A program made the position numbers and the translations under genes. This document shows positions 5,451 through 27,620 of a stretch of DNA of 64,000 nucleotides, in pieces. Each line of letters begins with the position of its first letter. Position 1 is the first letter of the stretch. A model generated the notes under the pieces. That model had not been told where the DNA came from. It saw nothing but the letters and a program-made list of their open reading frames with translations, and searched no databases. The DNA comes from Synergistota bacterium (lineage in GTDB: Bacteria > Synergistota > GBS-1). The stretch spans positions 1 through 64,000 of the forward strand of contig JANXBX010000005.1 in NCBI GenBank assembly GCA_025060595.1. Reading direction: 5' to 3'.

Positions 5451-5490
5451 ATTTTCTTTATTGTAGCAAGTCTTTAAGGAGTTGATTTTT

Positions 5491-7863
5491 ATGAATCTCG
5501 AAGTTTTTTATCTAGGGGCGCTCTTTCATGATGTAGGAAAGTTTATAGAAAGAACCAAAGCTTATAAGGAAATATCGAAGAAAGAAGAGTACAAGAGTCT
5601 TGATGTGGGACGGTGGGCGCATCCAAGGTATTCTCATTTTTGGCTTAAAGGTGTATGTGAGAGAATTCCTCTGCTTAAAGAGTTGAGTTCTTGTGATGTG
5701 GAAAAAATGCGTGATTTAGTTTTATGGCATCATAAACCTGGTGATCTTTTTTGGTGTGAAGTTCTTCAGACGGCGGATTATCTATCTGCTGCAGAGAGAG
5801 TGGAAGAGTCAGAAGAAGAGAAAGAGGAGTATAATAAGGAGCCTCTTTTAAGTATCTTTAGTGAGATCTTTGAGGATAAAACTTCGGATAAGCTGTTTTA
5901 TCCTCTTAAAAAGCTTGATACGGATGATAACATAATTTTTCCTCAGAACAAGGAATATCTGATAGTTAATTATGACGAATTGGAAAAAGATTTTGAATCT
6001 GTTTTAAGTTTGGTAGACTCAGAAGAGGATCTTTTAACTCTCTTTGAAAGGTACTTTTGGTGTGTTCCTTCTCAGGTTGTAGGAGCTAGAGCGGATATAT
6101 CTCTTTACGATCATTTGAGGACTACTGCTGCTATAGCAGTGGCTTACTGGCACGAGATAATTATAAGGGAAAAGGAAGGTATGGATTACTGGAGGGATCG
6201 CTTATCTAAGGTTAGAGATTTCTTAGGGAAAGGCAGTGGAAGTATAGGGGAAGAGGCTGACTTCCTTCTTATTGGCGGTGACCTTTCTGGTATTCAAAGC
6301 TTTATATTTGATATACCTTCTAAGGGAGCGGCGAAGAGCTTGAAAGGAAGATCATTATTTTTGTCTATTCTGATGGAGGTTATAGCAAGGTATATAGTTG
6401 ATAGTCTTAATTTAAGGCTGGTTAATATTCTTTACATGGGTGGAGGGGCTTTTTGGATTTTGGCACCTCGTTCTGTGGAAAATAGACTTAAAGATATTAG
6501 AAAGAATATCTCAAAGCTGCTTCTGAGAGCTCTGAAGGGGAAAATATATGTAGCTTTAAGTTGGGTTCCTATTTATTACAAAAATTTTTATGTGAAATCT
6601 GAGGAAAATTTTGTTTCGGTGGTTGAACGTCTTCAGAGAGAGCTTTCTAGGGTTAAAATGGAAAGATTTAAAGAAGTTCTTGAGGATGAGAATGGTTATA
6701 AACTTCTTTTTGGTTCACCTGGGATTCTGTCTTCCTATGAGGAGCATTGTATTATATGTGGTGAGAGTGAAAAGCACCTTCTTCTAGCTTATGATGAGCC
6801 TGTAGGTACTCAAAGAATATGTAAAATGTGCGATTCTTTTAGGGAATTATCGAATAGATTTAGTGAAGAAGATCTTATAAGGTTTGAAAAAGTTGGACGT
6901 GACTCAGATGTTGAAATATCAGATTGCTTTTCTCTGTTTAAAGCGTTTGGTTTTTCTGTAAATCCCGTCAAGTTGAAAGAAAAGGAAAGGATTTATTTTA
7001 AAAATTCCTTACTGAAAAGACCCAAGAAAAATAATAAGGAACCTTCTGTTAAAACTCTTGAGGATTTAGCTGAGCAAAGTGAAGGAGATAAGCTTTTGGG
7101 TTATATTAAGCTTGATATAGATAGTTTGGGAAGGATTTTTAAGGAGGGTTTAGGTAAGGAATACTACTCGGTATCGAGAGTCGCTATGCTAAGTAGGATG
7201 CTCGCCTTTTTCTTCGAAAGATACATACCTATGAGGATAATTTCTAATGAAGATTATCTTGTTTTCGCTGGTGGTGATGATGCCTTTATAATCTCTTCTT
7301 GGAGTAGATCGCTTAGAATTGCTGAGGAGATAGAAATGTCATTTAGAAAATATGTGGCTGGAAATCGCAAGATAACTTTTTCTGTGGGTCTATTTCTAGC
7401 TAAGCCCAATTATCCTGTAAGTAGAGCTGCAATTTTGGTGGAGGAGGAACTGCATAGCGCTAAGAGTAAGTATAAGGAGAAAGATGCGGTTTGTATCTGG
7501 GGAGAGGTTTTTACAAAGTGCGAGTATAGGGAGCTTTTAAAGCTGTGGAACAGGCTTAAGGAGTTCTTCAGTAAAAAGGATGGTTTTGAAGCAAGGGGTA
7601 CGCTTTTTAAAATTATAAGATTTTCAAAAGATCTTAGAAGCATGGATGAAGAGTTTAAACTTCCTAAACCTTGGCTCTTTGCTTATGCTTTAAGAAACGT
7701 TGAGGATAAGGAGTTCAAAGATTACATTGTTAATTTGTATGAAAGGCTTCCCTTTAAAGGTTTTTGTGGGGCAGATGAAAGCCCTATTGAGATTCGAAAC
7801 CCAGCCATATTATATGTGGCTTCCTGTTTTGCTTATCTTTCAACAAAAGAGGAGGTGAGGTAA
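5491..7863 (+). CDS. csm1: Cas10/Csm1, type III-A CRISPR effector large subunit
   Basis: 790 aa from the ATG at 5491. An in-frame TTG at 5482 abuts the SD AAGGAG (5476-5481), so it is unlikely to be the start. In order: an N-terminal HD nuclease domain (H13-D14 in LFHDVGKFIE), the first palm domain (LLIGGDLSGIQSFIF near 260), a zinc finger (C420-x2-C423 and C444-x2-C447), and a second palm domain with intact GGDD at residues 594-597. Intact HD and GGDD predict target-activated ssDNA cleavage and cyclic oligoadenylate synthesis. It is first in a five-gene operon and abuts csm2. Confidence 0.96.
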   Translation: MNLEVFYLGALFHDVGKFIERTKAYKEISKKEEYKSLDVGRWAHPRYSHFWLKGVCERIPLLKELSSCDVEKMRDLVLWHHKPGDLFWCEVLQTADYLSAAERVEESEEEKEEYNKEPLLSIFSEIFEDKTSDKLFYPLKKLDTDDNIIFPQNKEYLIVNYDELEKDFESVLSLVDSEEDLLTLFERYFWCVPSQVVGARADISLYDHLRTTAAIAVAYWHEIIIREKEGMDYWRDRLSKVRDFLGKGSGSIGEEADFLLIGGDLSGIQSFIFDIPSKGAAKSLKGRSLFLSILMEVIARYIVDSLNLRLVNILYMGGGAFWILAPRSVENRLKDIRKNISKLLLRALKGKIYVALSWVPIYYKNFYVKSEENFVSVVERLQRELSRVKMERFKEVLEDENGYKLLFGSPGILSSYEEHCIICGESEKHLLLAYDEPVGTQRICKMCDSFRELSNRFSEEDLIRFEKVGRDSDVEISDCFSLFKAFGFSVNPVKLKEKERIYFKNSLLKRPKKNNKEPSVKTLEDLAEQSEGDKLLGYIKLDIDSLGRIFKEGLGKEYYSVSRVAMLSRMLAFFFERYIPMRIISNEDYLVFAGGDDAFIISSWSRSLRIAEEIEMSFRKYVAGNRKITFSVGLFLAKPNYPVSRAAILVEEELHSAKSKYKEKDAVCIWGEVFTKCEYRELLKLWNRLKEFFSKKDGFEARGTLFKIIRFSKDLRSMDEEFKLPKPWLFAYALRNVEDKEFKDYIVNLYERLPFKGFCGADESPIEIRNPAILYVASCFAYLSTKEEVR

Positions 7864-8262
7864 ATGGTTAAAAACGAACAAGCGAGAGAAGGTCAAAATA
7901 CCAAGTATGATAGTGCTTTCATAGAAAAGAATGCTATTAAAATTAATGAAATTAAAAATGTAGAGGAGCTCAACAGGCTTTGCGAAGAGATAGAAAAGTT
8001 AGCTAAAAGCGATAAAACTACATTTACTCAAATAAGGAATATCTATTCTAGGGTTAGGAAAGTGAAGGAATTAAAGGATTTGGTAGCTCTAAGACCTGTC
8101 TTGGCTTACGTTGGCGCAAGGAACAATATAAAAGATTTGACCGGGCTTTTAGACAGGATAATTAAAGCTGCTAATAAGAGTGAGCATTTAGATAGCTTTA
8201 AAAAGTTTATGGAAATGCTTGTTTGTTACAAGAGGGTTCACAAGGGTCAGGAGGCGAGTTAG
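7864..8262 (+). CDS. csm2: Csm2, small subunit of the type III-A complex
   Basis: 132 aa, mostly charged helix, with the first 30 residues likely disordered. Csm2 proteins line the crRNA-target duplex in the Csm complex as the Cas11-type small subunit. The conserved segment SRVRKVKELKDLVALRPVLA (about residues 59-78) and KKFMEMLVCYKR near the C-terminus fit the family. ATG follows the cas10 stop directly, with GAGGTGAGG as SD. The call is strongly backed by its place between csm1 and csm3. Confidence 0.92.
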   Translation: MVKNEQAREGQNTKYDSAFIEKNAIKINEIKNVEELNRLCEEIEKLAKSDKTTFTQIRNIYSRVRKVKELKDLVALRPVLAYVGARNNIKDLTGLLDRIIKAANKSEHLDSFKKFMEMLVCYKRVHKGQEAS

Positions 8263-9132
8263 ATGGAAGTACCTAAGTTTATAGGTAGGGTTTTAATAGA
8301 GGGTAAAATAGAGGCCAAAACGGGTCTTCGTATAGGCGGTTCCAGGGAAGTGCTTGAAGTTGGTGGTCTAGATCTTCCCGTTATTAAGGATCCATTTGGG
8401 GTTCCTTATATACCTGGATCTTCTTTGAAGGGTAAGATGAGGGCTCTACTGGAACTTATGGAAGGTAAGGGAAGTTATGTTTTAAAAGGCGAGCAAGAAG
8501 ATACTAATTTTCAAGATTTTTGGGCTAAGTATACTAAGTATATTAGGGAGTCTAGCAATGAGAAATCGATAAAGTTTGAAGGTAAACCTTGTTCTTGTGG
8601 CGAATGTAATATATGTAAGCTTTTTGGCATTCCTGCAAATGCCAATAAACGTCCTTTAAATCCTACGCGTTTGACAGTTCGTGATGCTTTTTTAGATAAA
8701 GATGATTTTGAGAATAAGTTTAAGGATGCTGAGCTTCTTGAGTTTGAATATACAGAAGTTAAATATGAAAACTCTATAGATAGGCTCACTTCAGCAGCCA
8801 ATCCTCGTCAAGTAGAGAGGGTTCCAGCTGGTGCTCAGTTTAATTTTGCTATGATTGTTAAGCTTTTGGGTGAAGAGGAAGTGGATCTTTTAGGAACTCT
8901 TGCAACTGGTATGAAACTTCTCGAGGATGATTATCTTGGTGGTCATGGTTCAAGAGGTTATGGAGCTATAGAGTTTAGGAATCTTAAAATTAAGTTCAGG
9001 AGCCGTTCTTTTTACGAGGGAAGGGAAGGTGAAAAAGAAGTAGGAAGTTATAAGAGTGTTTCTGAAATTAAGCTTGAAGAGATTAAAAGCGCGCTGAAAA
9101 AGCTGATTAGAGGAGAAAGTGAGTCAAAATGA
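8263..9132 (+). CDS. csm3: Csm3, backbone Cas7-type subunit and target-RNA nuclease
   Basis: 289 aa. The N-terminal RRM-type fold carries TGLRIGGS, then GLDLPVIKDP, where D37 matches the catalytic aspartate (D33 of the Streptococcus thermophilus protein) that cuts target RNA every 6 nucleotides. IPGSSLKGKMRALLE follows. A cysteine-rich insert (CSCGECNICKLFG, about 110-122) is a probable zinc site. EVKYENSIDRLTSAANPRQ and DYLGGHGSRGYG are family signatures. An SD (CAGGAGG) lies before the ATG. It overlaps csm4 by 4 bases. Confidence 0.96.
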   Translation: MEVPKFIGRVLIEGKIEAKTGLRIGGSREVLEVGGLDLPVIKDPFGVPYIPGSSLKGKMRALLELMEGKGSYVLKGEQEDTNFQDFWAKYTKYIRESSNEKSIKFEGKPCSCGECNICKLFGIPANANKRPLNPTRLTVRDAFLDKDDFENKFKDAELLEFEYTEVKYENSIDRLTSAANPRQVERVPAGAQFNFAMIVKLLGEEEVDLLGTLATGMKLLEDDYLGGHGSRGYGAIEFRNLKIKFRSRSFYEGREGEKEVGSYKSVSEIKLEEIKSALKKLIRGESESK

Positions 9133-10118
9133 TGATTTTTAAGCTTTTCCCTGGTGAAAGAGCTTTACTATCCTGGAAAGATTTAACCTTTAGTTCTTCC
9201 TCGCTTTTTGGCGGTTTATCTAACGCGATTGGAGAGCTTTATGGTGGAGGCGAACTGCGTAAGTTCATAGAGGCTTTTTCTAAGAATGAAATTAATATTT
9301 CTTCTGTTTTTCCTATGATAAGGGGGGAAACGCAGGATATTCTATTCTTGCCTCGTCCTATTCTTCCTCCGAAGTTAGAAGGAAAAGAGGGTGGATCATC
9401 TATTGAGAGCAAGAAAATCAAGAGGATAAAATGGTTATCCGTGAATACATTTTTCGAGCTCGGTAAAAGTATTGTGTACGATGATTCTGATAAAAGTTAT
9501 AGATTTTATTACGTATTTTCGAACAGCAATATTTTTTGGAATGATCTTTTTTATGCTCAAGATGTTCCTGCTGAGTTTAAAAGAGAGATTCCTTTCAGGA
9601 AAGTTGAGGTTCCCCATGCTTCTATAGATAGGCTAGATTTTTCATCAAATCTTTTCTTTACTGAGGACATAATGGTTAAAAATCCCTTAGGTTTTTACTT
9701 TTTATGTGAAGCTTTAGATGTCTGGAGGGATAAGATAAAAAACGCTGTTAGTTTTCTTTTAGATGAAGGTTTAGGGGGTGAAAGAAGCAAGGGTAAGGGT
9801 ATTTTTGAGGAGGTTAAGGTAGAAGAGGTTGACTTTTTGCCCAAAGTTAAAAAAGTCATAGGTTATATTGGACTTTCTCTAACTTATCCATCTGAAGAAG
9901 AAGTTAGCAAAATTTATTCTTTTTCCTTAGTTAAAGATGATGGTTTTGTATACATGGGAGGAGGTAGAAGCATTAAAAAGTCCAGAGTAATGATGCTTTC
10001 AGAAGGTTCATTCTATAAAGGTGAAGTAAAGGGGAAGCTTTTTGAGGAGAGATCGGGGAATATTGTGGTCTTTAGAAACGGAAAGGCTTTTACTGTTCCG
10101 GTAGGTGATTTAAGTTGA
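9129..10118 (+). CDS. csm4: Csm4, Cas5-type subunit that caps the crRNA 5' handle
   Basis: 329 aa RAMP protein. The glycine-rich loop GLGGERSKGKGIFEEV near residues 219-234 is the best family mark, and PLGFYFL and SSSSLFGGLSNAIGELYGGG fit the Cas5/Csm4 fold. In the Csm complex it binds Cas10 and the repeat-derived crRNA tag. The start ATGATG overlaps the csm3 stop by 4 bases, indicating translational coupling. The stop overlaps the TTG start of csm5. Confidence 0.93.
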   Translation: MMIFKLFPGERALLSWKDLTFSSSSLFGGLSNAIGELYGGGELRKFIEAFSKNEINISSVFPMIRGETQDILFLPRPILPPKLEGKEGGSSIESKKIKRIKWLSVNTFFELGKSIVYDDSDKSYRFYYVFSNSNIFWNDLFYAQDVPAEFKREIPFRKVEVPHASIDRLDFSSNLFFTEDIMVKNPLGFYFLCEALDVWRDKIKNAVSFLLDEGLGGERSKGKGIFEEVKVEEVDFLPKVKKVIGYIGLSLTYPSEEEVSKIYSFSLVKDDGFVYMGGGRSIKKSRVMMLSEGSFYKGEVKGKLFEERSGNIVVFRNGKAFTVPVGDLS

Positions 10119-11266
10119 AAGTTAAGTTGAAAACCTTAACCCCAATATTTATAGGTGCTGGGAAAGAAAAAGTTCTCTCTCCAAGATTTGATTGGGTTAT
10201 GGGTAAGGAAGGTGTATTATTAATAGATCAAAATCGTTTATTTGAAATTCTTACCCTTAATGAGCGTTTAGTAGATGATTATGTTAAGCATGTTAAAGAA
10301 GGAGGAAATATCAGAAATTTCATTGATAATCTTGATAAGGAAAGAGTAATTGGAAAAGAAGATGTAAAGAGTTTGATTAAAGGTAAGCTTCGTTTTAAAG
10401 TGGCATTAAAAGATAAAGAGAACATCGAAATCCAAAGGTTTATTTCTTCTCCCTTAGGTAACTACATACCTGGAAGTAGCATCAAGGGGGCTATAAGGAC
10501 AGCATTGGGGTATTATTACTTTAACAAAAAGAAACAAAGGTCCAATACCTTAAATGTCTTAGATAAGATTAAAAATGTTAAGAATCCAAAGTTTGCCTAT
10601 AGTGATGCGAATTTGCAGTTCGAAACCTTTTCCGCTAGATTTTCTTCTTATGGAAAATATGATGCTAAAGATGACTTTCTTAAGCTTTTAAGGGTGAGGG
10701 ATAGTGCTTTCTTATCTCGAGATAATTTTGTGATATTTCAATGTTCTGTTTTCAACTTTAATAGTAATAAAGAGGGTGCACCTGTGTTTCTTGAGTGTTT
10801 GGATGAGGGAAAAGAGGTAGAAATTGAAATCAACTTTTTTAAGGGTAAGAGTCCTATTTATAACCTATGTTCTGGTTTTTGGAGTTTTCTTAAGGAGGGG
10901 GAAGAAAAGGCTATCTTAAAGATATTTGAGTTTTTAAACGGGTTTGCGTTGGACTTTATAAAACGTGAAAAGAACTTTTTTAAGAATAGACAAAAGGATT
11001 TGATAGATTTCTATAATAAAATAGAGAAAGAGGTTAGCGAAAAAACTGCTTTGCTTCTCTTAGGGAGGGGAACCACTTTCTTTGGAAAAACCATAGATAT
11101 GGCTTTTACAGATGAAGAATTTGAAAGATTAAGAGATATTTTTCCTATTAGACAGATGGGGGTTGTGGGAGGGAAGAAATCAAAACCATTTCCTATAACC
11201 CGTCTTTTGTGTAAGGATGGTAGTGGTTATAAGCCTCTTGGATGGGCTTTGCTTACCATAAAATAA
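10115..11266 (+). CDS. csm5: Csm5, Cas7-type subunit at the crRNA 3' end
   Basis: 383 aa RAMP protein. Visible marks are LKTLTPIFIGAGKEKVLSPR at the N-terminus, YIPGSSIKGAIRTALGYY near 117-134, and GRGTTFFGKTI near 315. Csm5 tops the filament and helps recruit nucleases for crRNA 3' trimming. It starts with TTG in a TTGA overlap with the csm4 stop. It is the last gene of the operon; no csm6 or cas6 follows, and a separate promoter lies 20 bases after its stop. Confidence 0.93.
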   Translation: MKVKLKTLTPIFIGAGKEKVLSPRFDWVMGKEGVLLIDQNRLFEILTLNERLVDDYVKHVKEGGNIRNFIDNLDKERVIGKEDVKSLIKGKLRFKVALKDKENIEIQRFISSPLGNYIPGSSIKGAIRTALGYYYFNKKKQRSNTLNVLDKIKNVKNPKFAYSDANLQFETFSARFSSYGKYDAKDDFLKLLRVRDSAFLSRDNFVIFQCSVFNFNSNKEGAPVFLECLDEGKEVEIEINFFKGKSPIYNLCSGFWSFLKEGEEKAILKIFEFLNGFALDFIKREKNFFKNRQKDLIDFYNKIEKEVSEKTALLLLGRGTTFFGKTIDMAFTDEEFERLRDIFPIRQMGVVGGKKSKPFPITRLLCKDGSGYKPLGWALLTIK

Positions 11267-11980: not shown

Positions 11981-12023
11981 TTGCTATTTTGCGTAGATGG
12001 TTTATAATTTAGTTGTAAACCAT
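11981..12023 (+). promoter_or_regulatory. Promoter and overlapping inverted-repeat operator of the symporter operon
   Basis: The -10 box is a perfect TATAAT (12003-12008) with TTGCTA (11981-11986) 16 bp upstream. A 27-bp inverted repeat with 11-bp arms and one mismatch (11997-12007 and 12013-12023, outer halves ATGGTTTA / TAAACCAT) covers the -10 and the start point. That position suits a repressor site. Confidence 0.6.
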
Positions 12024-12049
12024 AGCTAAAATTAGGAGGTGTTGCTCTG

Positions 12050-13300
12050 ATGAGTAATAATCAGTTAGCAGTGCCTCTTAAGTTAGGTAGGCGTCCTTTA
12101 CTTATGCTTTTTGCGTTTTTCCTAGGAGCAATTATTGGATACCTAGCTGGACCTAAGGTTGTGGTAATTAAACCCTTAGGAGATATATTCATATATCTTT
12201 TAAAGTTTTTAATCGGTCCTCTCATTTTTGTTTCTATAACTTTAGCTATATCTTTTGTTGCCGATATGAGTAGGCTTGGTAGGGTTTTTGGTCGATTCTT
12301 AATTTACTGGCTTGTTATGGGGTTTATTTCAGCAGCTATAGGTTTTGTCATGGCTGGTGTTATTAAGCCTGGTGTGGGGGTCAAACTTGAGCCTCCTCCA
12401 GGGTGGACTCCACCTAAAATAGCTGGTATAGATGAAATCATAGCTACTGTTATACCAAATAACTTTATAGCACCTTTTCTTAATCTCCAAGGTATGCAAA
12501 TCATAGTTGCTGCTATATTGTTTGGTATTGCTGCGGTACTTTTGGGAAGAGATATGCCTGATAAGAAGCAGCTTTTTGTTGATGTGCTCAACGCTATACT
12601 AGGGGTTATATACAAGTTTATAGATATTGTTCTTTGGTATGCTCCTATTGGAATCTTTGCTCTTGCTGCTAACTTGGTTGGGGTTGCTGGGGGAATGGTT
12701 TTAGGAGCGGTATTCAAGATGGTTTTAACTCAGTGGGTCGCTTATGCAATAATACTCTTTATAATCCATCCTATATTGCTTGTAGGGTATATAGGCGTTA
12801 ATCCTTTCCAATATTGGAGAAAGATTTATCCAGCTATGATAACGGCCTTTTCAACTACATCAAGTAGCGCTACAATGCCTGTTACACTTGAAAGGACAAG
12901 CAAGCTCGGTGTACCTGTAGATATGGTTCAGCTCATTATTCCTATTGCTGCGACCATTAATATGCAAGCCGTTGCTGCTGAGATGCCTATATATGTCGCT
13001 TGGGCTAGCCAAATGTATGGTGTTTCTTTAACTGGTGGGCAAATAGCTATAGCGCTTTTCCTAGGAGTTATAGGTGCGGCAGCTTGTGCAGGAGTCCCTG
13101 GTGGTGGAATTATAGTTGCTGCTATGACTCTCTCTATAATGGGGCTTCCTCTAACTCCTGTTCCATGGATAGCAGGGATTTATACTCTTATAGATATGCC
13201 CAATACGATGCTTAATGTTACAGGGGATCCTCTTGGAGTTATGGTTGTTGCTAAAGGTTTAGGTGAATTTGATAAGAGCAGGTTTTATGCTTCTGACTAA
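12050..13300 (+). CDS. Glutamate-transporter-family (DAACS) cation symporter with altered substrate site
   Basis: 416 aa, eight transmembrane segments and two hairpins as in GltPh. HP1 reads STTSSSATMP (268-277), with T270 where GltPh has Arg276. TM7 reads NMQAVA (304-309) in place of NMDGTA. TM8 reads DMPNTMLNVTGD (382-393), keeping the family Asp and Asn but with N385 where GltPh has Arg397, the residue that holds the acidic side chain. The two usual substrate arginines and one sodium-site Asp are therefore missing. A neutral or otherwise different substrate is inferred. AGGAGG precedes the ATG. Downstream genes suggest amino-acid use. Confidence 0.9.
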   Translation: MSNNQLAVPLKLGRRPLLMLFAFFLGAIIGYLAGPKVVVIKPLGDIFIYLLKFLIGPLIFVSITLAISFVADMSRLGRVFGRFLIYWLVMGFISAAIGFVMAGVIKPGVGVKLEPPPGWTPPKIAGIDEIIATVIPNNFIAPFLNLQGMQIIVAAILFGIAAVLLGRDMPDKKQLFVDVLNAILGVIYKFIDIVLWYAPIGIFALAANLVGVAGGMVLGAVFKMVLTQWVAYAIILFIIHPILLVGYIGVNPFQYWRKIYPAMITAFSTTSSSATMPVTLERTSKLGVPVDMVQLIIPIAATINMQAVAAEMPIYVAWASQMYGVSLTGGQIAIALFLGVIGAAACAGVPGGGIIVAAMTLSIMGLPLTPVPWIAGIYTLIDMPNTMLNVTGDPLGVMVVAKGLGEFDKSRFYASD

Positions 13301-14474
13301 AGGGTCACCGAGAATTTGTTTAGCTGGTCATATCGGTGTCGGTCACGTTTTTAGCCATTCTGGGTTTGTCCAAGATGATTCGCTTGGTTTTTTAACTGTT
13401 GTTAATTTTGTTAAAGAGCTTTTTGGTTTAGATATCAAGCTTGTAGGAACTAGCGTTGACGGAGATAGTATAAAGGTTTTTACATCTTACGGCGGGGTTG
13501 GTATAGGTAAGCCTAGAAGGGGGTTAACCCCTTTTGAAATTAGTGCCTTGAGGAAGGCGGGGGGTGACCCCCTTTTTGTTCAACGTTTAGCTCTTGAGAT
13601 CTTTGGTAGGTTTTACGGTAACGGTATTAGTGAAAGCGCTGTTTCATTTATGTATGCTTTATCAGAGAGTATATTAGATTCTTTAAATAGGGCTATACCT
13701 GAGTCCAAGCTTTTGAAGTGTGAGGATGAAATAAGTTCGGATATAGTTTGGGGAGTTAATATCGATTTTTGGGGTGTACCCTTAGCCATTTTAGCCACTG
13801 TAAATGGTTCTAAAATCGGCTTGGGGCCTTGTGAAGATTTGGAAGGAAATGTTTATAAAGGGGTGAAATTTAGAGTTTTAAGGAGTTTAAGAGCATTAAA
13901 AATCCCCACAATAGTTGTAGAAAGCAAAGCCTTTAATCCGGCTCTTAGTGTTGATGTTCCAAGTTTTCTAGTTAGGTATAATGAGGAAGTGGATAATTCC
14001 GCTGTTGCTTTGAGTCTAGTCGATTCTCTTAAGGAGCTCGGATACCCTTTTCTATTCATAAGTAAAGCTTTTCCTCTTCTTTCGAAACCTGCCATAGAGG
14101 TTGAAAGCAAGAAGTTTGTTTCACGTTTACTTAGGCTTGTTAAGGCCTTTTCTAGGGTTAAGACCTCTAAGAGTAAGGTTTTGATTTTAGGAGAACTTGC
14201 TAAGCTTATCTCTGAGGATGCTGGTGGTGTTTCTTTTATGAGCTCTAGAGTCAATAAAGTGGCGAGAGCTGTTGGGTTAATGCCTGGTACTGGTGCTGTT
14301 ATATCTATGTGTTTGCCGAAAGGATATATAAAGGAGCATAAAATTCCTTTCGTTACGGAGGATGATTTAGCCAAAATGACACAAGTTGTGAGAAAGGCAG
14401 TTATAAGGCTTTGGGATAGAATCGAAGATGCCCAAAGAGAACTTAATTTGAAATTCAAGGCCTTAGGGGGGTGA
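13287..14474 (+). CDS. Protein of unknown function, between a symporter and an asparaginase
   Basis: About 395 aa from the ATG at 13287; an in-frame GTG at 13263 is also possible and the start is not settled. I do not recognise the family. It has no signal peptide and no membrane segment. Conserved-looking stretches are GHIGVGHVFSHSGFVQDD (H15, H20, H24, D30, D31), which could bind a metal, GVNIDFWGVPLAI, and GLGPCEDLEGN near the middle, plus GLMPGTGAVISMCLPKG near the C-terminus. It overlaps the symporter 3' end by 14 bases and is 4 bases before the asparaginase TTG, so the three genes form one operon and probably one pathway. Confidence 0.75.
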   Translation: MLLTKGSPRICLAGHIGVGHVFSHSGFVQDDSLGFLTVVNFVKELFGLDIKLVGTSVDGDSIKVFTSYGGVGIGKPRRGLTPFEISALRKAGGDPLFVQRLALEIFGRFYGNGISESAVSFMYALSESILDSLNRAIPESKLLKCEDEISSDIVWGVNIDFWGVPLAILATVNGSKIGLGPCEDLEGNVYKGVKFRVLRSLRALKIPTIVVESKAFNPALSVDVPSFLVRYNEEVDNSAVALSLVDSLKELGYPFLFISKAFPLLSKPAIEVESKKFVSRLLRLVKAFSRVKTSKSKVLILGELAKLISEDAGGVSFMSSRVNKVARAVGLMPGTGAVISMCLPKGYIKEHKIPFVTEDDLAKMTQVVRKAVIRLWDRIEDAQRELNLKFKALGG

Positions 14475-14478
14475 GTTT

Positions 14479-15519
14479 TTGGCTGATAAAATTTTATGGA
14501 TAAGAACCGGCGGAACTATAGATATGATTTATGATAAGGAGAGCGCTTCTTATGTTCCTGCCTCTAAGGATTTGATCAATAAGGTTTTAGATAGAATATC
14601 TTTAAGCGATGTTTACTTGGATATAAGAAGCGATGTGGTTGATTTTATAGATAGCTCAGAGATGATACCCGATGTGTGGATTAGGCTTTCGGTTTTTATA
14701 GCTGATAACATAGAGAGATATGATGGAGTTTTAATAACTCATGGAACTGATACGATGCATTATACGGCTTCGGCCTTGAGTTTTATGCTTATGAATTTAG
14801 ATAAACCTGTTGTTCTGACAGGGGCGATGATTCCTATACTTGAGGAGGGCTCTGATGGAGTGAAGAATTTCTTGGATTCTATAACCTTTTTGACCAGAGC
14901 TTCTATACCTGGTGTCTTTTTGGTATTTGATGGTAAAGTTATAAGAGGGGTAAGGGCAAGAAAAGTTAGCTCAGGTGATTTTGGGGCGTTTTATAGTATA
15001 AACTCAGAGTATGTTGGTTTTGTGGAGAATGGGGCTATTAGATTAAATTTAAAAGGTAAACCTTTTATAACGGGATCAGGACAATCTAGAGTTTATGCTG
15101 ATACTAAGTTAAATAATAAAGCTGCTTTAGTTAAACTTTTTCCTGGATTTGATCCCAAGTTGCTAGAGAGTTTAGTTGTTTCAGGGGTTAAGGGAATTGT
15201 ACTTGAGGCTTTTGGTTCCGGAGGGGCTAGGGTTACTGATCCACTTTCTATAGTTGAGTCTATAAGAAGACTTAAAGAGAAAGGTATTCCGGTTTTTATA
15301 ACTTCTCAATGTTGTTTAAAAGGAATTGTTAGGTTCGGTCCTAAGCCTTACTATGTGGCTAAAAGGTTGATGGAAGCTGGTGCTATTTCGCTTCATGATA
15401 TGCTTAGTGAGGTTGCTATTGTTAAACTTATGTGGGTGTTAGGTCATACTGAAAGTTACAATGAGATTGTAGAGCTTATGCTTAAAAATATGGTTGGTGA
15501 GATAGACACAGATAGTTAA
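14479..15519 (+). CDS. L-asparaginase family amidohydrolase, cytoplasmic
   Basis: 346 aa. Both catalytic triad parts of the family are visible: T13 in RTGGTID, and T90-D91 with K162 (HGTDTM and ARKVSS), matching Thr12, Thr89-Asp90 and Lys162 of the E. coli type II enzyme. It hydrolyses asparagine (or a related amide) to aspartate and ammonia. There is no signal peptide, so it acts in the cytoplasm. It starts with TTG behind AGGGGGGTGA and is the third gene of the symporter operon. GAMIPILEEGSDGVKN replaces the more usual GAMRP, so the exact substrate is open. Confidence 0.9.
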   Translation: MADKILWIRTGGTIDMIYDKESASYVPASKDLINKVLDRISLSDVYLDIRSDVVDFIDSSEMIPDVWIRLSVFIADNIERYDGVLITHGTDTMHYTASALSFMLMNLDKPVVLTGAMIPILEEGSDGVKNFLDSITFLTRASIPGVFLVFDGKVIRGVRARKVSSGDFGAFYSINSEYVGFVENGAIRLNLKGKPFITGSGQSRVYADTKLNNKAALVKLFPGFDPKLLESLVVSGVKGIVLEAFGSGGARVTDPLSIVESIRRLKEKGIPVFITSQCCLKGIVRFGPKPYYVAKRLMEAGAISLHDMLSEVAIVKLMWVLGHTESYNEIVELMLKNMVGEIDTDS

Positions 15520-15569: not shown

Positions 15570-16667
15570 GTGCATCAAAAAGAGTGGCTTGAAGTTAGAG
15601 TTGATGAGTTAAAGGATGTTGTAAAACGTATTTTTATGGCTCTTAATGTACCTGAAGAACATGCGGAGATTGCTGCTGATGTTTTAGTTGAGGCAGATAG
15701 AAGAGGTATAGGTTCTCATGGGGTTGGTCGCTTAAGGAGATATGTAGATGGTATAAAAACAGGGATGATGATACCTGGTGTTGAGGGTATCGTTGTTAAA
15801 GAAACTGAGAATACTTTGACTATTGATGGTCAGGGTGGTCTTGGTCAAGTGGTAGCTTATAAAGCTATGAAAAAGGTTATAGAGAAAGCGGAGAAGAAGA
15901 ATATATGTTTTGCCGCTGTTAGAAACTCTAATCACTATGGAATAGCTGGATATTATGCAATGATGGCCTTAGAAAAGGGTTTAATAGGTATTTCTTTGAC
16001 TAACTCTACTCCGTTAATGGTTCCTACATTTGGAAAAAATGTTTTCTTAGGAACTAATCCTATAGCTATAGCTTTTCCTGTTGAGAAAGGTTGGCCGGTG
16101 GTTCTCGATATGGCTACTTCTACGGTTCCGCAGGGGAAGTTAGAGGAGTATAGGAGAATGGGAAAGAAAATACCTCTGTGTTGGGCTACGGATGAGTTTG
16201 GTAATCCTTGTGATGATCCTGGAAGAGTTTTAGATAACATGGCTGCAAGACGTGGTGGAGGTCTTCTTCCATTAGGAGGAGCTGATGAGGAAACTGGAGG
16301 GCATAAGGGCTACGCTCTTTCTTTTGTGATAGATGTGCTTTGTGGGGTGCTTTCTGGAGGAATTTATGGAATACATCTTTACGAGGAAAAGGGGAAGCCG
16401 TCTGGGGTGGCGCACTTCTTGGGAGCTATGAGAATAGATGCTTTTATAGATCCTGATCTTTTTAAAAAGAACTTATCCAAATTTGTTGAAGAGATAAAGT
16501 CGGCAGAAAAAAGAGAGGGTTGTCCGAGAATATATGTTCCTGGGGAGAAAGAGTATGAAAATGCAGAGAGGCAGAAAGAGAAGGTTAAGCTTTATTATAA
16601 GGTTATTAATGAGATTAAGGCAGTTGCCTCAGAATTAGGTGTTAATATTAATTTAAATCCCCTGTGA
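15570..16667 (+). CDS. LDH2/MDH2-family NAD(P)-dependent 2-hydroxyacid dehydrogenase
   Basis: 365 aa, the usual length of this family (malate, L-sulfolactate, ureidoglycolate and delta1-piperideine-2-carboxylate enzymes). Signatures are SHGVGRLRRYVDGIKTG near residue 50, RNSNHYGIAGYYA near 113 with the catalytic-site His, and GTNPIAIAFP near 165. It interconverts a 2-hydroxy acid (or cyclic imino acid) and its oxo form in the cytoplasm. GTG start behind AGGGGGG. The peptide-importer genes follow 16 bases later, so they may be co-transcribed. The substrate cannot be told from sequence. Confidence 0.9.
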   Translation: MHQKEWLEVRVDELKDVVKRIFMALNVPEEHAEIAADVLVEADRRGIGSHGVGRLRRYVDGIKTGMMIPGVEGIVVKETENTLTIDGQGGLGQVVAYKAMKKVIEKAEKKNICFAAVRNSNHYGIAGYYAMMALEKGLIGISLTNSTPLMVPTFGKNVFLGTNPIAIAFPVEKGWPVVLDMATSTVPQGKLEEYRRMGKKIPLCWATDEFGNPCDDPGRVLDNMAARRGGGLLPLGGADEETGGHKGYALSFVIDVLCGVLSGGIYGIHLYEEKGKPSGVAHFLGAMRIDAFIDPDLFKKNLSKFVEEIKSAEKREGCPRIYVPGEKEYENAERQKEKVKLYYKVINEIKAVASELGVNINLNPL

Positions 16668-16683: not shown

Positions 16684-18531
16684 TTGAAGAAATTTAGTTT
16701 GGTTAAGTGGTTTTTCGTTTTAAGCTTAACTTTTATCTTCTCCATTAATGTTTTTGCTGAGGTTAAAAATCCTGACACCATAATTGTAGCTACCATAGGA
16801 GATGTACATACTCTTGATCCTCACTTTGCTTATGATACTGCAAGCGGAGAAATCATATATAATGTTTATGAAAATCTTATAGCCTATAAGGGAGAGAGTG
16901 TTACAGAATTTATACCGCTTTTAGCTACGGAGGTTCCAACGGTGGAAAATGGTCTTATAAGGGACAATGGAAGGACCTATATATTCCCCATAAGGAAAGG
17001 GGTGAAGTTTCATAATGGTTATGAGCTTACTCCTGAGGATGTGGCTTACTCCTTTAAGCGCTGTATGATACTTGATAGGACCGGTGGACCTAGCTGGATG
17101 ATATTGGATCCACTACTAGGTTATGAAAGTCTGGAGGACTTAGTTAGGGATAAGGCGAAGGTTTCAAGCTGGGGAGACCTTTTTACTGAGGATGGTAAGC
17201 TTAAGCCTGGATTTGAGAAAGTTATGAGAGAGATATACGATATGATAGATAAAGCTGTAGAGGTTCAAGGAGATAAAGTGGTCTTTCGTCTTGCTAAACC
17301 CTATCCTCCTTTCTTAAATATTCTTGCTCAAGGGGCAAGCTGGTCTGCTATTTTAAGTAAAAGGTGGTGCATTGAGCAAGGGGACTGGCCTGGTACTCCT
17401 GAGGAATGGTGGAAATATCGCGATCCTCAGAGAGAAAAGGATCCACTCTATGAGCGAATGAATGGAACTGGTCCATTTAAGCTTGTTGAATGGAAGAAGG
17501 GGGAATATGTTAAGCTTGAGAGAAATGAGAATTATTGGAGAGGTCCTGCAAAGGTAAAGTACGTTTTGATAAAGAAGGTTGATGAATGGGCTACAAGGAG
17601 GATGCTTCTTGAGAATGGAGATGCTGATGCAGTTTATGTACCAAGGCAGTATCTTCCTCAGATTGAAAAGATGAAGGGGATAAGGATAATTAGAGGGCTT
17701 CCAACTTTGGCTATACAGGCTGCATTATTTAACCTTAATATAAAAATTGAGGGAAATCCTTACGTAGGTAGTGGAAAGCTTGATGGCGAAGGGATACCAT
17801 CAGACTTCTTTAATGATATTCACGTTAGAAGGGGATTTTGCTATTTATTCGATTGGGACACTTACATAAAAGAGGTTTGGAATGGAGAAGCGCTTCAACC
17901 TACTGGTATAGTTCCAAAGGGGCTTCTGGGATATAATCCTGATGGCCCAAAATATAGCTTTAATATGGAAAAGGCAAAAGAGGAGTTTATGAAGGCTTGG
18001 AATGGTGAGGTTTGGAAAAAGGGTTTTAAGTTTACGATACTTTATAATGCTGGAAATGAGGAGCGAAAAATAGCTGCCGAGATGCTTGCGAGAAACGCAC
18101 GTAAACTTAATCCTAAGTTCAGGATAGAAGTTAGAGGAGTTCAGTGGTCAACCTATCTTTCTGATCTAACTAAGGGGAATCTGCCACTTTTTATAATGGG
18201 ATGGCTTGCTGATTATCCTGATCCTCATAATTTTGTTCAACCCTTTTTAAGTAGTAGGGGGGCTTTTATGGCCTATCAGGGTAAAAATGCGATTGAACTT
18301 GCTAAGAGGGAGTTTGATCCCCTCATAGAGAAAGCTATGACTATCGGTGATTCGAAAGAGAGAGAGAAAATATACTTTGAGATTCAGAAGAAAGAGCATG
18401 AGTATGCTCCTCATATACTTCTTCATCAAGCCATGGGAGTTCATGTTTCAAGAACTTGGATAAAAGGATGGTATTATAATCCCATGAGGCCTGGTGGAGA
18501 TTTCTATAGCCTTTATAAGTCCGAGGAATAA
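16684..18531 (+). CDS. Peptide/nickel-type ABC transporter periplasmic substrate-binding protein
   Basis: 615 aa SBP_bac_5 (cluster C) protein, longer than most DppA/OppA. Signal peptide about 1-25 (ends NVFA/EVKNPD) with no lipobox cysteine, so periplasmic. Family marks: DVHTLDPHFAYDT, RKGVKFHNGYELTPEDVAYS near 103-122, and NGTGPFKLVEWKKGEY near 259. The TTG start lies behind a run of seven G. It delivers oligopeptides or a similar ligand to the permease pair encoded next. Confidence 0.93.
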   Translation: MKKFSLVKWFFVLSLTFIFSINVFAEVKNPDTIIVATIGDVHTLDPHFAYDTASGEIIYNVYENLIAYKGESVTEFIPLLATEVPTVENGLIRDNGRTYIFPIRKGVKFHNGYELTPEDVAYSFKRCMILDRTGGPSWMILDPLLGYESLEDLVRDKAKVSSWGDLFTEDGKLKPGFEKVMREIYDMIDKAVEVQGDKVVFRLAKPYPPFLNILAQGASWSAILSKRWCIEQGDWPGTPEEWWKYRDPQREKDPLYERMNGTGPFKLVEWKKGEYVKLERNENYWRGPAKVKYVLIKKVDEWATRRMLLENGDADAVYVPRQYLPQIEKMKGIRIIRGLPTLAIQAALFNLNIKIEGNPYVGSGKLDGEGIPSDFFNDIHVRRGFCYLFDWDTYIKEVWNGEALQPTGIVPKGLLGYNPDGPKYSFNMEKAKEEFMKAWNGEVWKKGFKFTILYNAGNEERKIAAEMLARNARKLNPKFRIEVRGVQWSTYLSDLTKGNLPLFIMGWLADYPDPHNFVQPFLSSRGAFMAYQGKNAIELAKREFDPLIEKAMTIGDSKEREKIYFEIQKKEHEYAPHILLHQAMGVHVSRTWIKGWYYNPMRPGGDFYSLYKSEE

Positions 18532-18541
18532 GTGAAATTAT

Positions 18542-19582
18542 ATGATAGCTTATATTTTAAGAAGGCTTTTAATCCTGCCTTTTATTTTGTTAGGGGTTAC
18601 TTTTCTTGTTTTCTTCATGATGCAGTTTCTCGATCCTGTTCAAAGGCTTTCTGCTTACATAAAAAGTCCTGAGGAGTTAAAAAACCTTACTACTGAGGAT
18701 CTAAATAGGTTAATAAAAAGGTATGGATTGGATAGACCTCTCGCCGTTCAGTATTTTGATTGGCTTAAGAAGGTCTTAAAGTTTGATCTGGGTTGGTCGG
18801 AAGTAGCCCATCAACCAGTTAAAGATGCCATACTAAACAGGTTTCCAGCAACGCTTGAGCTTGCGCTATTTGCTGTTTTCCCCGTGATATGGATTGGAAT
18901 ACAGCTTGGAGTAATTTCAGCAGTTCACCGAGATAGACTATTAGATCAAGCTATAAGAGTTTTTGCAGTTGTGGGATGGTCAATGCCATCTTTCGTTTTT
19001 GGAATACTTGTTCTTTTCCTCCTTTATGGTGTTTTAGGTTTATTTCCACCAGGAAGATTGTCCCTTTGGGCTCAGAATATTGTGAGTTCACCGGATTTTA
19101 AGGCATACACAGGGCTTTATGTGATTGATGGTCTTTTAAATGGTGAATTAAGTGTAGCTTTAGATGCTTTAAAGCACCTTGTAGGTCCTATTATAACCTT
19201 GTCTTATCTGTGGTGGGCTTTCATATTGAGGATTACTCGCTCAAGTATGCTTGAGGCTCTTCATAAGGAATATGTAGTTACTGCACGAGCTAAAGGGGTT
19301 CCTGAAAAGCTTGTAATTCATAGACATGCTAAAAGAAACGCTCTTATACCTGTAGTTACGGTTGCAGGAATGATGGTTTTGGGGCTTCTTGGTGGGGTTG
19401 TGATAACAGAAACTATTTTTGATTATCCAGGAATAGGTAGGCTTGCTGCTTCTGCGGCTCAACAGCTTGATTATCCTCTTATTCTTGGAATAACTCTATT
19501 TGATGCTTTGCTTCTAGTTTTAGGTAATCTTATAGTTGATATTCTTTATGCCATAGTGGATCCAAGGGTGAGGCTTGAATGA
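18542..19582 (+). CDS. DppB-type ABC permease subunit
   Basis: 346 aa, six hydrophobic segments. The EAA loop KRNALIPVVTVAGMMVLG near residues 263-280 contacts the ATPase. Residues 40-70 and 165-210 form the large periplasmic loops usual in this branch. It starts 10 bases after the binding-protein stop and overlaps the next permease gene by 4 bases. Confidence 0.93.
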   Translation: MIAYILRRLLILPFILLGVTFLVFFMMQFLDPVQRLSAYIKSPEELKNLTTEDLNRLIKRYGLDRPLAVQYFDWLKKVLKFDLGWSEVAHQPVKDAILNRFPATLELALFAVFPVIWIGIQLGVISAVHRDRLLDQAIRVFAVVGWSMPSFVFGILVLFLLYGVLGLFPPGRLSLWAQNIVSSPDFKAYTGLYVIDGLLNGELSVALDALKHLVGPIITLSYLWWAFILRITRSSMLEALHKEYVVTARAKGVPEKLVIHRHAKRNALIPVVTVAGMMVLGLLGGVVITETIFDYPGIGRLAASAAQQLDYPLILGITLFDALLLVLGNLIVDILYAIVDPRVRLE

Positions 19583-20475
19583 TAGGTTTTTCTCAAGTTT
19601 TGTTGAAGCTCGTGAGGAATCCTACATCGCTTTTGGGGATCGTTTTGGTTTCATTTTTTGCTTTTATAGCCTTGTTTGCTCCTCTTATAGCTCCTCCTGA
19701 GTATCCTGATGAGCCCTATCTTCTTCCTAAGGCTGGATGGGCTATAGAGCCCTCTCCTCCTTCGGAAAAACATCCATTTGGTACAACAGAGGGACAATAT
19801 GACATCTTTTATGGGATAGTCTGGGGGTCGAGGACGGCCTTTAAGGTTGGGTTTATAACAGTTGTTTTTTCGGCTTTGATTGGTGTTATCGTTGGTTCTA
19901 TTTCTGGTTACTTTGGGGGTTGGATAGATGAACTTATAATGAGAATAACAGATATATTTATGGCATTTCCATTTTTGGTTGCTGCTATGGTGCTTACAAC
20001 CATACTCGGGAAGGGACTGGACAAGGTTATGATAGCTCTTGTAGTTTTCGGTTGGATGGGGTATGCTCGATTGATTAGGGGGAGTTTTCTTTCTGCTAAA
20101 GAAGAGCTCTACGTTCTAGCAGCTAAGGCAATAGGAGTTAGCACCTTTAAGATAATATTTAAGCATATACTTCCTAACACAATATATCCAATAGTGATTC
20201 AGGCCTCTATGAATATGGGTTCTATGGTTGTTACAGCTTCAGCTTTAAGTTTCCTTGGGGTTGGAGCTCCTGATGGTTATGCTGATTGGGGACAGATGAT
20301 CTCTTATGCAAGGAACTGGATAGTAGGAGCGCCTGGAGAAGCTCTTAAGTACTGGTATACTTTCCTTTATCCGGGAGGGGCGATAGCTCTTTTTGTTTTA
20401 GGTTGGAATCTTTTAGGTGATGCTATAAGGGATATTCTTGATCCTCGACTTAGGGGGCTTAAGGTTAGAGAATGA
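19579..20475 (+). CDS. DppC-type ABC permease subunit
   Basis: 298 aa, six hydrophobic segments with the OppC-type N-terminal helix and a periplasmic stretch HPFGTTEGQYDIFYGIVWGS. The EAA loop is AAKAIGVSTFKIIFKHILPN near residues 180-199. The ATG lies in a 4-base overlap with dppB and its stop overlaps dppD by 4 bases, so the importer genes are coupled. Confidence 0.93.
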   Translation: MIGFSQVLLKLVRNPTSLLGIVLVSFFAFIALFAPLIAPPEYPDEPYLLPKAGWAIEPSPPSEKHPFGTTEGQYDIFYGIVWGSRTAFKVGFITVVFSALIGVIVGSISGYFGGWIDELIMRITDIFMAFPFLVAAMVLTTILGKGLDKVMIALVVFGWMGYARLIRGSFLSAKEELYVLAAKAIGVSTFKIIFKHILPNTIYPIVIQASMNMGSMVVTASALSFLGVGAPDGYADWGQMISYARNWIVGAPGEALKYWYTFLYPGGAIALFVLGWNLLGDAIRDILDPRLRGLKVRE

Positions 20476-24536: not shown

Positions 24537-24905
24537 TTAGGCTCTATTTATGCTTTTCGTAGCTATAACGTTAGCTTCTGTTCCTGCAACATTCTTTATT
24601 ATTATATCCCCAGCTTTTATTGGTGCTTTAACTTTTGTATTTTTTATTTCTTTCATTACATCGAATATTTTGTATTTTGGTATAGCTTTATCTATCTTAA
24701 CACTTACCAAAGGTAGGTCTCCATCTTCGACCAGAACGCTTGAGGCTATTGTTCTCTTAGGGTTAAAGATTTCATTATAAGCGTAATCTTTACCCTTGGA
24801 GCACAGAGCATTATCGATTTTTAGCCCGTTGGGGTTTTTATCATCACGAGCAACTATAAGATTGCAGCTATTTGGACACAATATACAAACCATTTCTCTT
24901 ATCAT
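24537..24905 (-). CDS. DUF1667 iron-sulfur-type small protein
   Basis: 122 aa. The N-terminus has MVCILCPNSCNL (C-x2-C-x3-C) and later NALCSKGKDYA, four cysteines fit for a cluster or zinc. Then comes the family stretch NPKRTIASSVLVEDGDLPLV and a C-terminal SHS2-like part. DUF1667 genes commonly travel with a glycerol-3-phosphate-dehydrogenase-like FAD protein and an NAD/FAD oxidoreductase, as here. Its start overlaps the upstream oxidoreductase stop by 4 bases. It may act as an electron carrier of that complex (inference). Confidence 0.88.
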   Translation of the reverse strand: MIREMVCILCPNSCNLIVARDDKNPNGLKIDNALCSKGKDYAYNEIFNPKRTIASSVLVEDGDLPLVSVKIDKAIPKYKIFDVMKEIKNTKVKAPIKAGDIIIKNVAGTEANVIATKSINRA

Positions 24906-26140
24906 TCTATCATCACCTCTAACTTTTCCGCACTTTTCAGTTCTTCTGCTTTAACTTCGATATTTTCCATCACAGCAGGATGAAGGTTTATTATTCTCTT
25001 TCTCTTTATTACTCTGTTATTACCGTCTCTTATAACTATATATCTATTTCTTGATGGATAGCTTACTCTAAATAAGAAGTTTACGTCTAATTTTCCAGAA
25101 ATCTTGTGTGGTAGCACATATCTTATTCCTTCACCTGCTTTTACGTCTATCCAATTTTTGGATCTTGGTAAACTTCCTTCAAGGTAACGTTTTGCAAATT
25201 CCGCTACAAGCTCTCCTTCCATTGATGCCCAGTCGGCTAAATCATGCACGTGAAGAACATTTCCAGCTGCAAATACGCCCTCTATGTTAGTTTGATAGGT
25301 GTCATCTACTATAGGACCACCAGTTACTGGGTGAATTGGGATACCAGCTTCTCTTGATAGCTCATTTTCTGGTATGAGTCCGACAGAGAGTAGAAGTGTA
25401 TCGCATTTTACAAACTTTTCACTGTTAGGGATTATCTTTCCCTCATCATCCAATTTTACATAGGTTACTCCCTCAACTCTTGCTTTTCCGTGAACCTTAG
25501 TTACTGTGGTTTTAAGATATAAAGGAATGTTATAGTCTTCAAGACATTGCACAATATTTCTCGGTAGACCGCTTGAGTAAGGTAATTTCTCTAGCACCAT
25601 AAGGACTCGAGCTCCTTCTAGCGTTAATCTTCTTGCCATTATAAGGCCTACATCTCCAGAGCCAAGAATGACCACTTCGTTTCCAATCATGTAATTGTCT
25701 ATGTTCATCAGCCTTTGAGCCACTCCAGCTGTGTATATTCCTGCGGGTCTGGTTCCTGCAAGCCATATTGCTCCAGCAGTTCTCTCTCTGCAACCCATCG
25801 CCAGAACGATTACTTTTGCTTTTATTTTTTCTCTTCCCCATGGGCCGCTGAGTATCATGCTTTTATCTGGGAAAAGATTAACTACCATAGTATCAGAGAG
25901 AATATCCACTTTATAGTTAATGAGCTTTTCTAAATATTTATCTATATACTCTGGACCTGTTAAACTTTCTTTAAATTTATGTAATCCAAAGCCATCATGA
26001 ATGCATTGGTTTAATATGCCTCCCAGTTTTTTTTCTCTTTCTACCAAAAGTACGTCGTTAACTCCTATTTCCTTTAGTCTGGTTGCGCAAGCTAAACCAG
26101 CTGGTCCCGCACCTATTATTACTACGTCTCTTTCAATCAT
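24902..26140 (-). CDS. NAD(P)/FAD-dependent oxidoreductase, partner of the GlpA-like enzyme
   Basis: 412 aa. FAD-binding GAGPAGLACATRLKEIG near residue 10, a GxGxxG NAD-binding site VILGSGDVGLIMARRL near 150-165, and the second FAD motif TNIEGVFAAGNVLHVHD near 275. ECNQCIHDGFGLHK-type text (here NQCIHDGFGLHKF, residues 45-57) holds a cysteine near the flavin. It follows the GlpA-like gene with an 8-base overlap and precedes DUF1667 with a 4-base overlap. The three likely form one flavin/iron-sulfur complex passing electrons to NAD or a carrier. Confidence 0.9.
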   Translation of the reverse strand: MIERDVVIIGAGPAGLACATRLKEIGVNDVLLVEREKKLGGILNQCIHDGFGLHKFKESLTGPEYIDKYLEKLINYKVDILSDTMVVNLFPDKSMILSGPWGREKIKAKVIVLAMGCRERTAGAIWLAGTRPAGIYTAGVAQRLMNIDNYMIGNEVVILGSGDVGLIMARRLTLEGARVLMVLEKLPYSSGLPRNIVQCLEDYNIPLYLKTTVTKVHGKARVEGVTYVKLDDEGKIIPNSEKFVKCDTLLLSVGLIPENELSREAGIPIHPVTGGPIVDDTYQTNIEGVFAAGNVLHVHDLADWASMEGELVAEFAKRYLEGSLPRSKNWIDVKAGEGIRYVLPHKISGKLDVNFLFRVSYPSRNRYIVIRDGNNRVIKRKRIINLHPAVMENIEVKAEELKSAEKLEVMIE

Positions 26141-27599: not shown

Positions 27600-27620
27600 T
27601 TTTTCACCTCCCACCTTAAA

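Follow-up and report, generated by a model that had tools for sequence, protein, structure and literature searches.

A symporter gene, a gene of no named family and an asparaginase gene follow one another in the stretch of Synergistota bacterium DNA analysed here (the window, 64,000 nucleotides), and together they constitute a conserved catabolic module that includes an uncharacterised enzyme family. The product of the middle gene, abbreviated UNK below, belongs to a family that is widespread, unnamed, enzyme-like and tied to the uptake and breakdown of amino acids. This multi-phylum family has dozens of invariant or near-invariant positions, is absent from Pfam and NCBIfam and has no solved relative by sequence, and the company that it keeps in operons is consistent enough to narrow the candidate substrates to a few that can be tested. 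We tentatively propose that UNK is, quite possibly, an amino acid racemase for aspartate-like substrates, acting on cysteate in the Desulfobacterota and probably on D-asparagine in the window. More broadly, UNK is probably either such a racemase or a comparable enzyme of catabolism.

Organization of the gene cluster

The three genes and the features around them are listed in Table 1. UNK was read from an ATG that overlaps the symporter stop by 14 bases (ORF coordinates), and an alternative GTG start at 13263 would give a protein of 403 residues. An identical 14-base overlap of symporter and UNK is found at two other loci (L002 and L003), and the asparaginase gene starts 4 bases past the end of UNK. 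The Ldh_2-family gene is a probable further member of the operon, and L002/L081, from the same genus, also has such a gene 3' of the trio. The ABC transporter genes are possibly on the same transcript; at L003, an ABC binding protein and a permease are likewise encoded 3' of the trio. Promoter-like sites found by consensus scan showed no excess over shuffled sequences, and the site listed is a pattern match only.

Table 1. Features of the gene cluster and of two other clusters in the window
Feature	Position	Strand	Details
Sigma-70-like promoter match, TTGCTA-16-TATAAT	11981..12008	+	about 42 bases 5' of the symporter gene; consensus scan
SDF (SLC1/DAACS) symporter, T270/Q306/E311/N385	12050..13300	+	416 aa; PF00375, 1e-89; alignment to solved structures
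UNK, unnamed family, proposed amino acid racemase	13287..14474	+	395 aa from ATG; genome context
Type I asparaginase, catalytic T13/T90/D91/K162	14479..15519	+	TIGR00519 above cut-off; residues conserved
Ldh_2-family 2-hydroxyacid dehydrogenase	15570..16667	+	PF02615, 2e-117
Dipeptide/oligopeptide-type ABC binding protein and two permeases	16684..20475	+	ORFs with short gaps
Type III-A-like CRISPR effector module	5482-11266		by eye
Oxidoreductase cluster	24537-27614	-	by eye

Two further clusters were noted elsewhere in the window. The first consists of five tightly packed genes, which appear to be a Cas10-like gene (HD-like start, GGDD) followed by Csm2/3/4/5-like genes, and neither cas1 nor cas2 was recognised in the ORF list of the window. 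The second appears to encode an FAD-dependent dehydrogenase/oxidase, an NAD(P)/FAD oxidoreductase and a small Cys-rich protein, and it resembles the anaerobic glycerol-3-phosphate dehydrogenase set.

Asparaginase and symporter

The asparaginase that was originally described as following UNK is assigned to the asparaginase family by Pfam and is of type I, with a score of 269 bits against TIGR00519 (NCBIfam cut-off 260.5), and its four catalytic residues are conserved among the asparaginases of the trio loci. The symporter gives a full-length match to PF00375 (positions 4-386 of 387, Pfam) and scores far under the NCBIfam curated cut-offs for DctA, GltP and SstT. According to the original prediction, it lacks both arginines that hold acidic substrates as well as a sodium-site aspartate; alignment to GltPh and 9bgz bore this out, with T270 at the position of Arg276, Q306 at that of Asp312 and N385 at that of Arg397. 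Because the nearest solved relative, the aspartate transporter 9bgz, carries a Cys at the Arg276 position, loss of this arginine is not diagnostic, and it was dropped as a sign of a new substrate. The informative losses are those of Arg397 in TM8 and Asp312 in TM7, the two marks of the GltPh-like acidic subgroup, both of which the symporter lacks.

Retained in TM8 are D382, T386, N389 and D393, the equivalents of GltPh D394, T398, N401 and D405. In GltPh, the substitution R397C leads to loss of aspartate uptake and gain of serine, alanine and cysteine transport (PMC5750217). The retained residues, taken with this analogy, suggest that the likely cargo is an amino acid whose side chain is neutral, and the protein is predicted to be a neutral amino acid importer. 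Asparagine is the natural guess, since the operon holds an intact asparaginase. The missing Asp312 suggests a change in ion coupling, for which E311 is a possible proton site.

These features are shared by the symporters found next to UNK elsewhere. The signature TINM(Q/H)A..AEMPIY together with N385 was present in 25 of 26 aligned SDF proteins, the sole exception being a canonical SDF copy that does not adjoin UNK; partner symporters have Q or H at position 306 and read AEMPIY or AEMAIY, with E311. A second SDF copy in the genome of the window (L191) retains Arg276, Asp312 and Arg397 and is of the canonical aspartate type, and the window symporter is therefore a specialised copy. The partner symporters also offer a natural test of how SLC1 substrate and ion coupling respond to the joint loss of Arg397 and Asp312. 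In Thermovorax, the partner symporter is split into two ORFs (L025:10200-11299), through either decay or assembly error.

Sequence and distribution of the UNK family

A GTDB scan found UNK homologues at 28 loci, and the family is represented in Synergistota, Clostridia, Negativicutes, Sutterellaceae, Desulfobacterota, Fusobacteria and one Desulfurococcaceae archaeon. Within the window's own phylum, 15 of 188 genomes, the window genome counted, have UNK. A Fusobacteria plasmid carries a homologue too, as does one more genome from the class to which Sedimentibacter belongs.

Searches of Pfam, NCBIfam and the PDB by sequence gave zero matches to UNK, which is therefore of an unrecognised family, as first described, and falls into no well-known family with an unrelated role. 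Nothing credible was found when 34 homologues were scanned singly, nor was there any match when the PDB was searched with a profile made from the UNK alignment. NCBIfam gave no match to the Asp/Glu racemase superfamily (TIGR00035, NF052483), and no sequence match to peptidase or lyase families was seen. A literature search by function words, with subscription papers outside its coverage, returned no paper on the family.

More than 20 residues are invariant in the family alignment; many are polar, and they cluster in motifs. They include G14, H15, G17, H20, Q29, D30, D31, G69, G70, N173, K194, E212 and R230, among others, and the stretch G178-xG-P181-xE183-D184-xE186-G187-N188. Of the cluster H15/H20/H24/D30/D31 to which attention had been drawn in the window protein, all residues except H24 are invariant, and no cysteine is conserved. 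The pattern of conservation is like that of an active site.

One candidate relationship, to the diaminopimelate epimerase DapF, was discarded. It appeared for 1 of the 34 members at an E value of 0.008, which is at chance level, and L013, scanned singly, scored 13.9 bits against a cut-off of 114.65. The stretch matched is the second cysteine motif of DapF, which in DapF is preceded by a strand; homology was rejected because the cysteine is not conserved in UNK and a helix, not a strand, is predicted before it. An apparent 654-residue fusion protein in Fretibacterium (L020) proved to be merely a run of N. In one Synergistota genome (G128), UNK is split into two ORFs (L077:8009-9345) by decay or assembly error.

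Gene context of UNK across genomes

Gene neighbourhoods were compared at 39 loci besides the window, after merging of duplicates. An SDF symporter adjoins UNK at 25 of these and an asparaginase at 19, with both present at 18, so that homologues of the trio do co-occur, as had been anticipated, from Synergistota to the archaeon. The other loci have TRAP transporter genes (6), an Amidohydro_3 protein (4) or other neighbours (3), or are cut by a contig end (1). Some SDF-UNK loci without asparaginase stop at a contig border, and those of the Sutterellaceae are genuinely without it. Symporters were also surveyed in the 188 genomes of the phylum by means of a degenerate DNA pattern for AEMPIY. The pattern occurred in 15 genomes, in 13 of which it lies in a real symporter (the matches in G011 and G121 are not symporters), and 11 of these 13 adjoin UNK. 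Of the 188 genomes, 13 have the signature symporter, 15 have UNK and 11 have both, an association beyond chance (Fisher p about 5e-13, kinship ignored). At L088 (2834-5265), an AEMPIY symporter without UNK lies beside a PLP enzyme of the threonine-dehydratase/serine-racemase fold and a DUF6282 protein, which may functionally stand in for UNK.

In a phylogenetic tree, UNK sequences group by context. The TRAP loci form one well-supported clade, with the long-branched L023 apart, and the amidohydrolase loci form another such clade. SDF loci, mostly with asparaginase, are found in both deep halves of the tree, the archaeon included, and the link is therefore old or was gained repeatedly; the SDF link is probably the ancestral state and the other contexts derived, or else it arose more than once. 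Other neighbours of UNK fit loosely with amino acid stereochemistry: L079 has a DppA D-aminopeptidase homologue together with a CuyB-type racemase, L033/L072 an Asp/Glu racemase and an aminotransferase, and L078 an AbgT transporter and a PepT-like M20 peptidase. On the Fusobacteria plasmid (L045:2075-9155), a glycyl-radical enzyme, its activase and a TauE/SafE-family exporter are encoded a few genes from UNK, a further possible sulfonate link.

That UNK accompanies unrelated types of transporter (SDF, TRAP and AbgT) could mean that it is a non-catalytic partner of amino acid importers, either a sensor or a transporter-associated regulator. This is highly improbable given the many polar residues among its invariant positions, set in motifs typical of active sites, and given three loci (L027, L033 and L045) with no transporter directly beside UNK. 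The original suggestion of an uptake-and-breakdown route for an amide or amino-acid-like compound other than glutamate or aspartate agrees with the loss of Arg397 and with the intact asparaginase, but UNK itself is not amide-specific. It is found not just with asparaginase but also with TRAP transporters and a D-cysteate sulfo-lyase, and elsewhere with amidohydrolases, so that it must have a broader role than the cleavage of amides.

Cysteate operons in the Desulfobacterota

The gene order RidA-CuyA-DctP-DctQ-DctM-UNK-GntR is found at all five Desulfobacterota loci of the TRAP clade, with the small DctQ gene placed from ORF lists, and UNK closes the set of enzyme and transport genes before GntR. 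CuyA is a D-cysteate-cleaving enzyme, and the CuyA of a UNK operon that was scanned lies above the D-cysteate sulfo-lyase cut-off. Its preferred form of the substrate is supplied by CuyB, which racemises L-cysteate to D-cysteate (PMC11382572). The other genes of the operon already cover import, lysis, removal of the enamine and regulation; racemisation is the one step without a gene, and UNK is thus its natural candidate.

Among 277 Desulfobacterota genomes sampled, 13 contained CuyA above cut-off. CuyB was above cut-off in 6 of the 13, each time adjoining CuyA, and in a seventh (G973) it lies beside CuyA and is cut by the contig end. UNK without CuyB was found in 2 (G191 and G919), UNK together with CuyB in none, and neither in 4. 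CuyB was not found in two further genomes with UNK and CuyA (L017 and L029), and Halodesulfovibrio (L014) has both UNK and CuyB, the latter in a different TRAP locus; in all, four of the five genomes with a UNK-CuyA operon are without CuyB above cut-off. At L171 and L175, also from Desulfobacterota, CuyA/CuyB adjoin a separate, less related SDF symporter that is possibly a cysteate importer.

These operons also bear on whether UNK might attack the amino acid itself as a lyase, deaminase or decarboxylase, for example of the aspartate/asparagine ammonia-lyase type, up- or downstream of the asparaginase. Such an activity, in keeping with the near-constant presence of amino acid transport genes beside UNK and with the threonine-dehydratase-like enzyme next to the UNK-less symporter of L088, is distinctly unlikely, since the cysteate operons already have CuyA for lysis and RidA for clearing the enamine, and known lyase families are not matched.

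Predicted structure of UNK

AlphaFold2 models of the window protein and of a Desulfopila homologue were confident, with pLDDT values of 88.6 and 93.7, respectively. The best Foldseek matches of both models in the PDB were uridine phosphorylases (E about 2e-5, probability 1.00), but superposition was poor, with TM-scores of 0.23-0.28 over the query and an rmsd of about 10 Å or worse. M42-type aminopeptidases, with similarly poor superposition, and the CwlV amidase came next (E 0.01-0.6, TM-score about 0.25), and a Foldseek search against viral proteins gave no match. Comparison by hhalign of the UNK profile with Udp/MtnN profiles, built from approximate E. coli reference sequences and from genome homologues, gave a probability under 5 percent, and PF01048 (NP-I) was not matched by any UNK member scanned. 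Membership of NP-I, the nucleoside-phosphorylase superfamily, was rejected: the structural match recurs, but profile comparison and superposition fail. The models point to a weak resemblance to a phosphorylase/hydrolase-like class, not to membership.

Recruitment of an NP-I enzyme for a ribosyl or nucleoside-like substrate would account for the recurrence of uridine phosphorylases at the top for two independent models; it is very unlikely, as the neighbours of UNK are amino acid genes and not nucleoside genes. A hydrolase of phosphorylase/hydrolase-like fold, similar to amidases or peptidases, might instead release an amino acid from a precursor that is N-acylated, cyclic or a dipeptide, with the asparaginase then deamidating the product. 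The aminopeptidase and amidase matches point this way, as do neighbouring genes for Amidohydro_3 proteins, the M20 peptidase with AbgT, the DppA homologue and the peptide-type ABC transporter, and the invariant His/Asp/Glu residues could bind metal. We nevertheless consider a hydrolase unlikely: the structural matches are weak and unaccompanied by any to peptidase families in sequence, characterised members of the symporter family carry free amino acids or dicarboxylates, and the place of UNK in RidA-CuyA-TRAP operons, where the substrate should be free cysteate, is left unexplained.

Proposed role of UNK

If UNK is a racemase, the cargo of the window symporter would be a small neutral amino acid, most likely asparagine, its D-form included. 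UNK would convert the D-form to the L-form, and the asparaginase would hydrolyse the latter, yielding aspartate and ammonia for use in fermentation. In the sulfite-producing Desulfobacterota, UNK would replace CuyB, turning imported L-cysteate into D-cysteate for CuyA. Catalysis might involve the invariant His/Asp/Glu/Lys cluster, and a metal may take part, a guess prompted by the absence of a conserved cysteine. It is conceivable, if rather doubtful, that UNK stands at the head of a new racemase family with no relation to those already known, which serves the use of D-asparagine in fermenters through a modified SLC1 symporter as well as cysteate respiration in sulfidogens, supplying the missing racemase where a CuyA operon has no CuyB.

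Several observations speak against racemisation. By sequence comparison, UNK is homologous to no racemase, and its best predicted fold matches, though poorly superposed, are nucleoside phosphorylases. The Asp/Glu-family racemases near UNK at two loci count mildly against it, as they would be redundant unless the substrates differ. Halodesulfovibrio carries CuyB in addition to UNK, and the Sutterellaceae have UNK without asparaginase. A dedicated racemase is moreover not obligatory, because four CuyA genomes have neither CuyB nor UNK. Should racemisation be confirmed, UNK would represent a new enzyme class, would explain how L-cysteate could be fed to a D-specific lyase in several sulfidogens without CuyB and would point to the use of D-amino acids by anaerobes that live in sediments, in hot habitats and in guts.

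Comparison with known systems

The asparaginase of the window is an AnsA-like type I L-asparaginase that has its catalytic residues and is otherwise ordinary in sequence, the unusual feature being its partner UNK. The symporter resembles SDF/SLC1 members (GltPh, GltTk, EAAT and ASCT) in its serine-rich HP1, TINM position in TM7 and GVPGGG of HP2, and it differs from them in the changes of Arg397 to Asn and, across partner copies, of Asp312 to Gln or His, as well as in the new E311. UNK has a weak local structural likeness to uridine phosphorylases and M42 aminopeptidases; compared with these, it has extra helical regions and superposes poorly overall, with neither sequence nor profile in support. 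In relation to CuyB (NF052483, Asp/Glu racemase superfamily), UNK is longer (395 versus 225 residues), is not similar in sequence and lacks the conserved cysteine pair, whereas it occupies the same place in the CuyA operon, and the genomes that carry the two are largely complementary.
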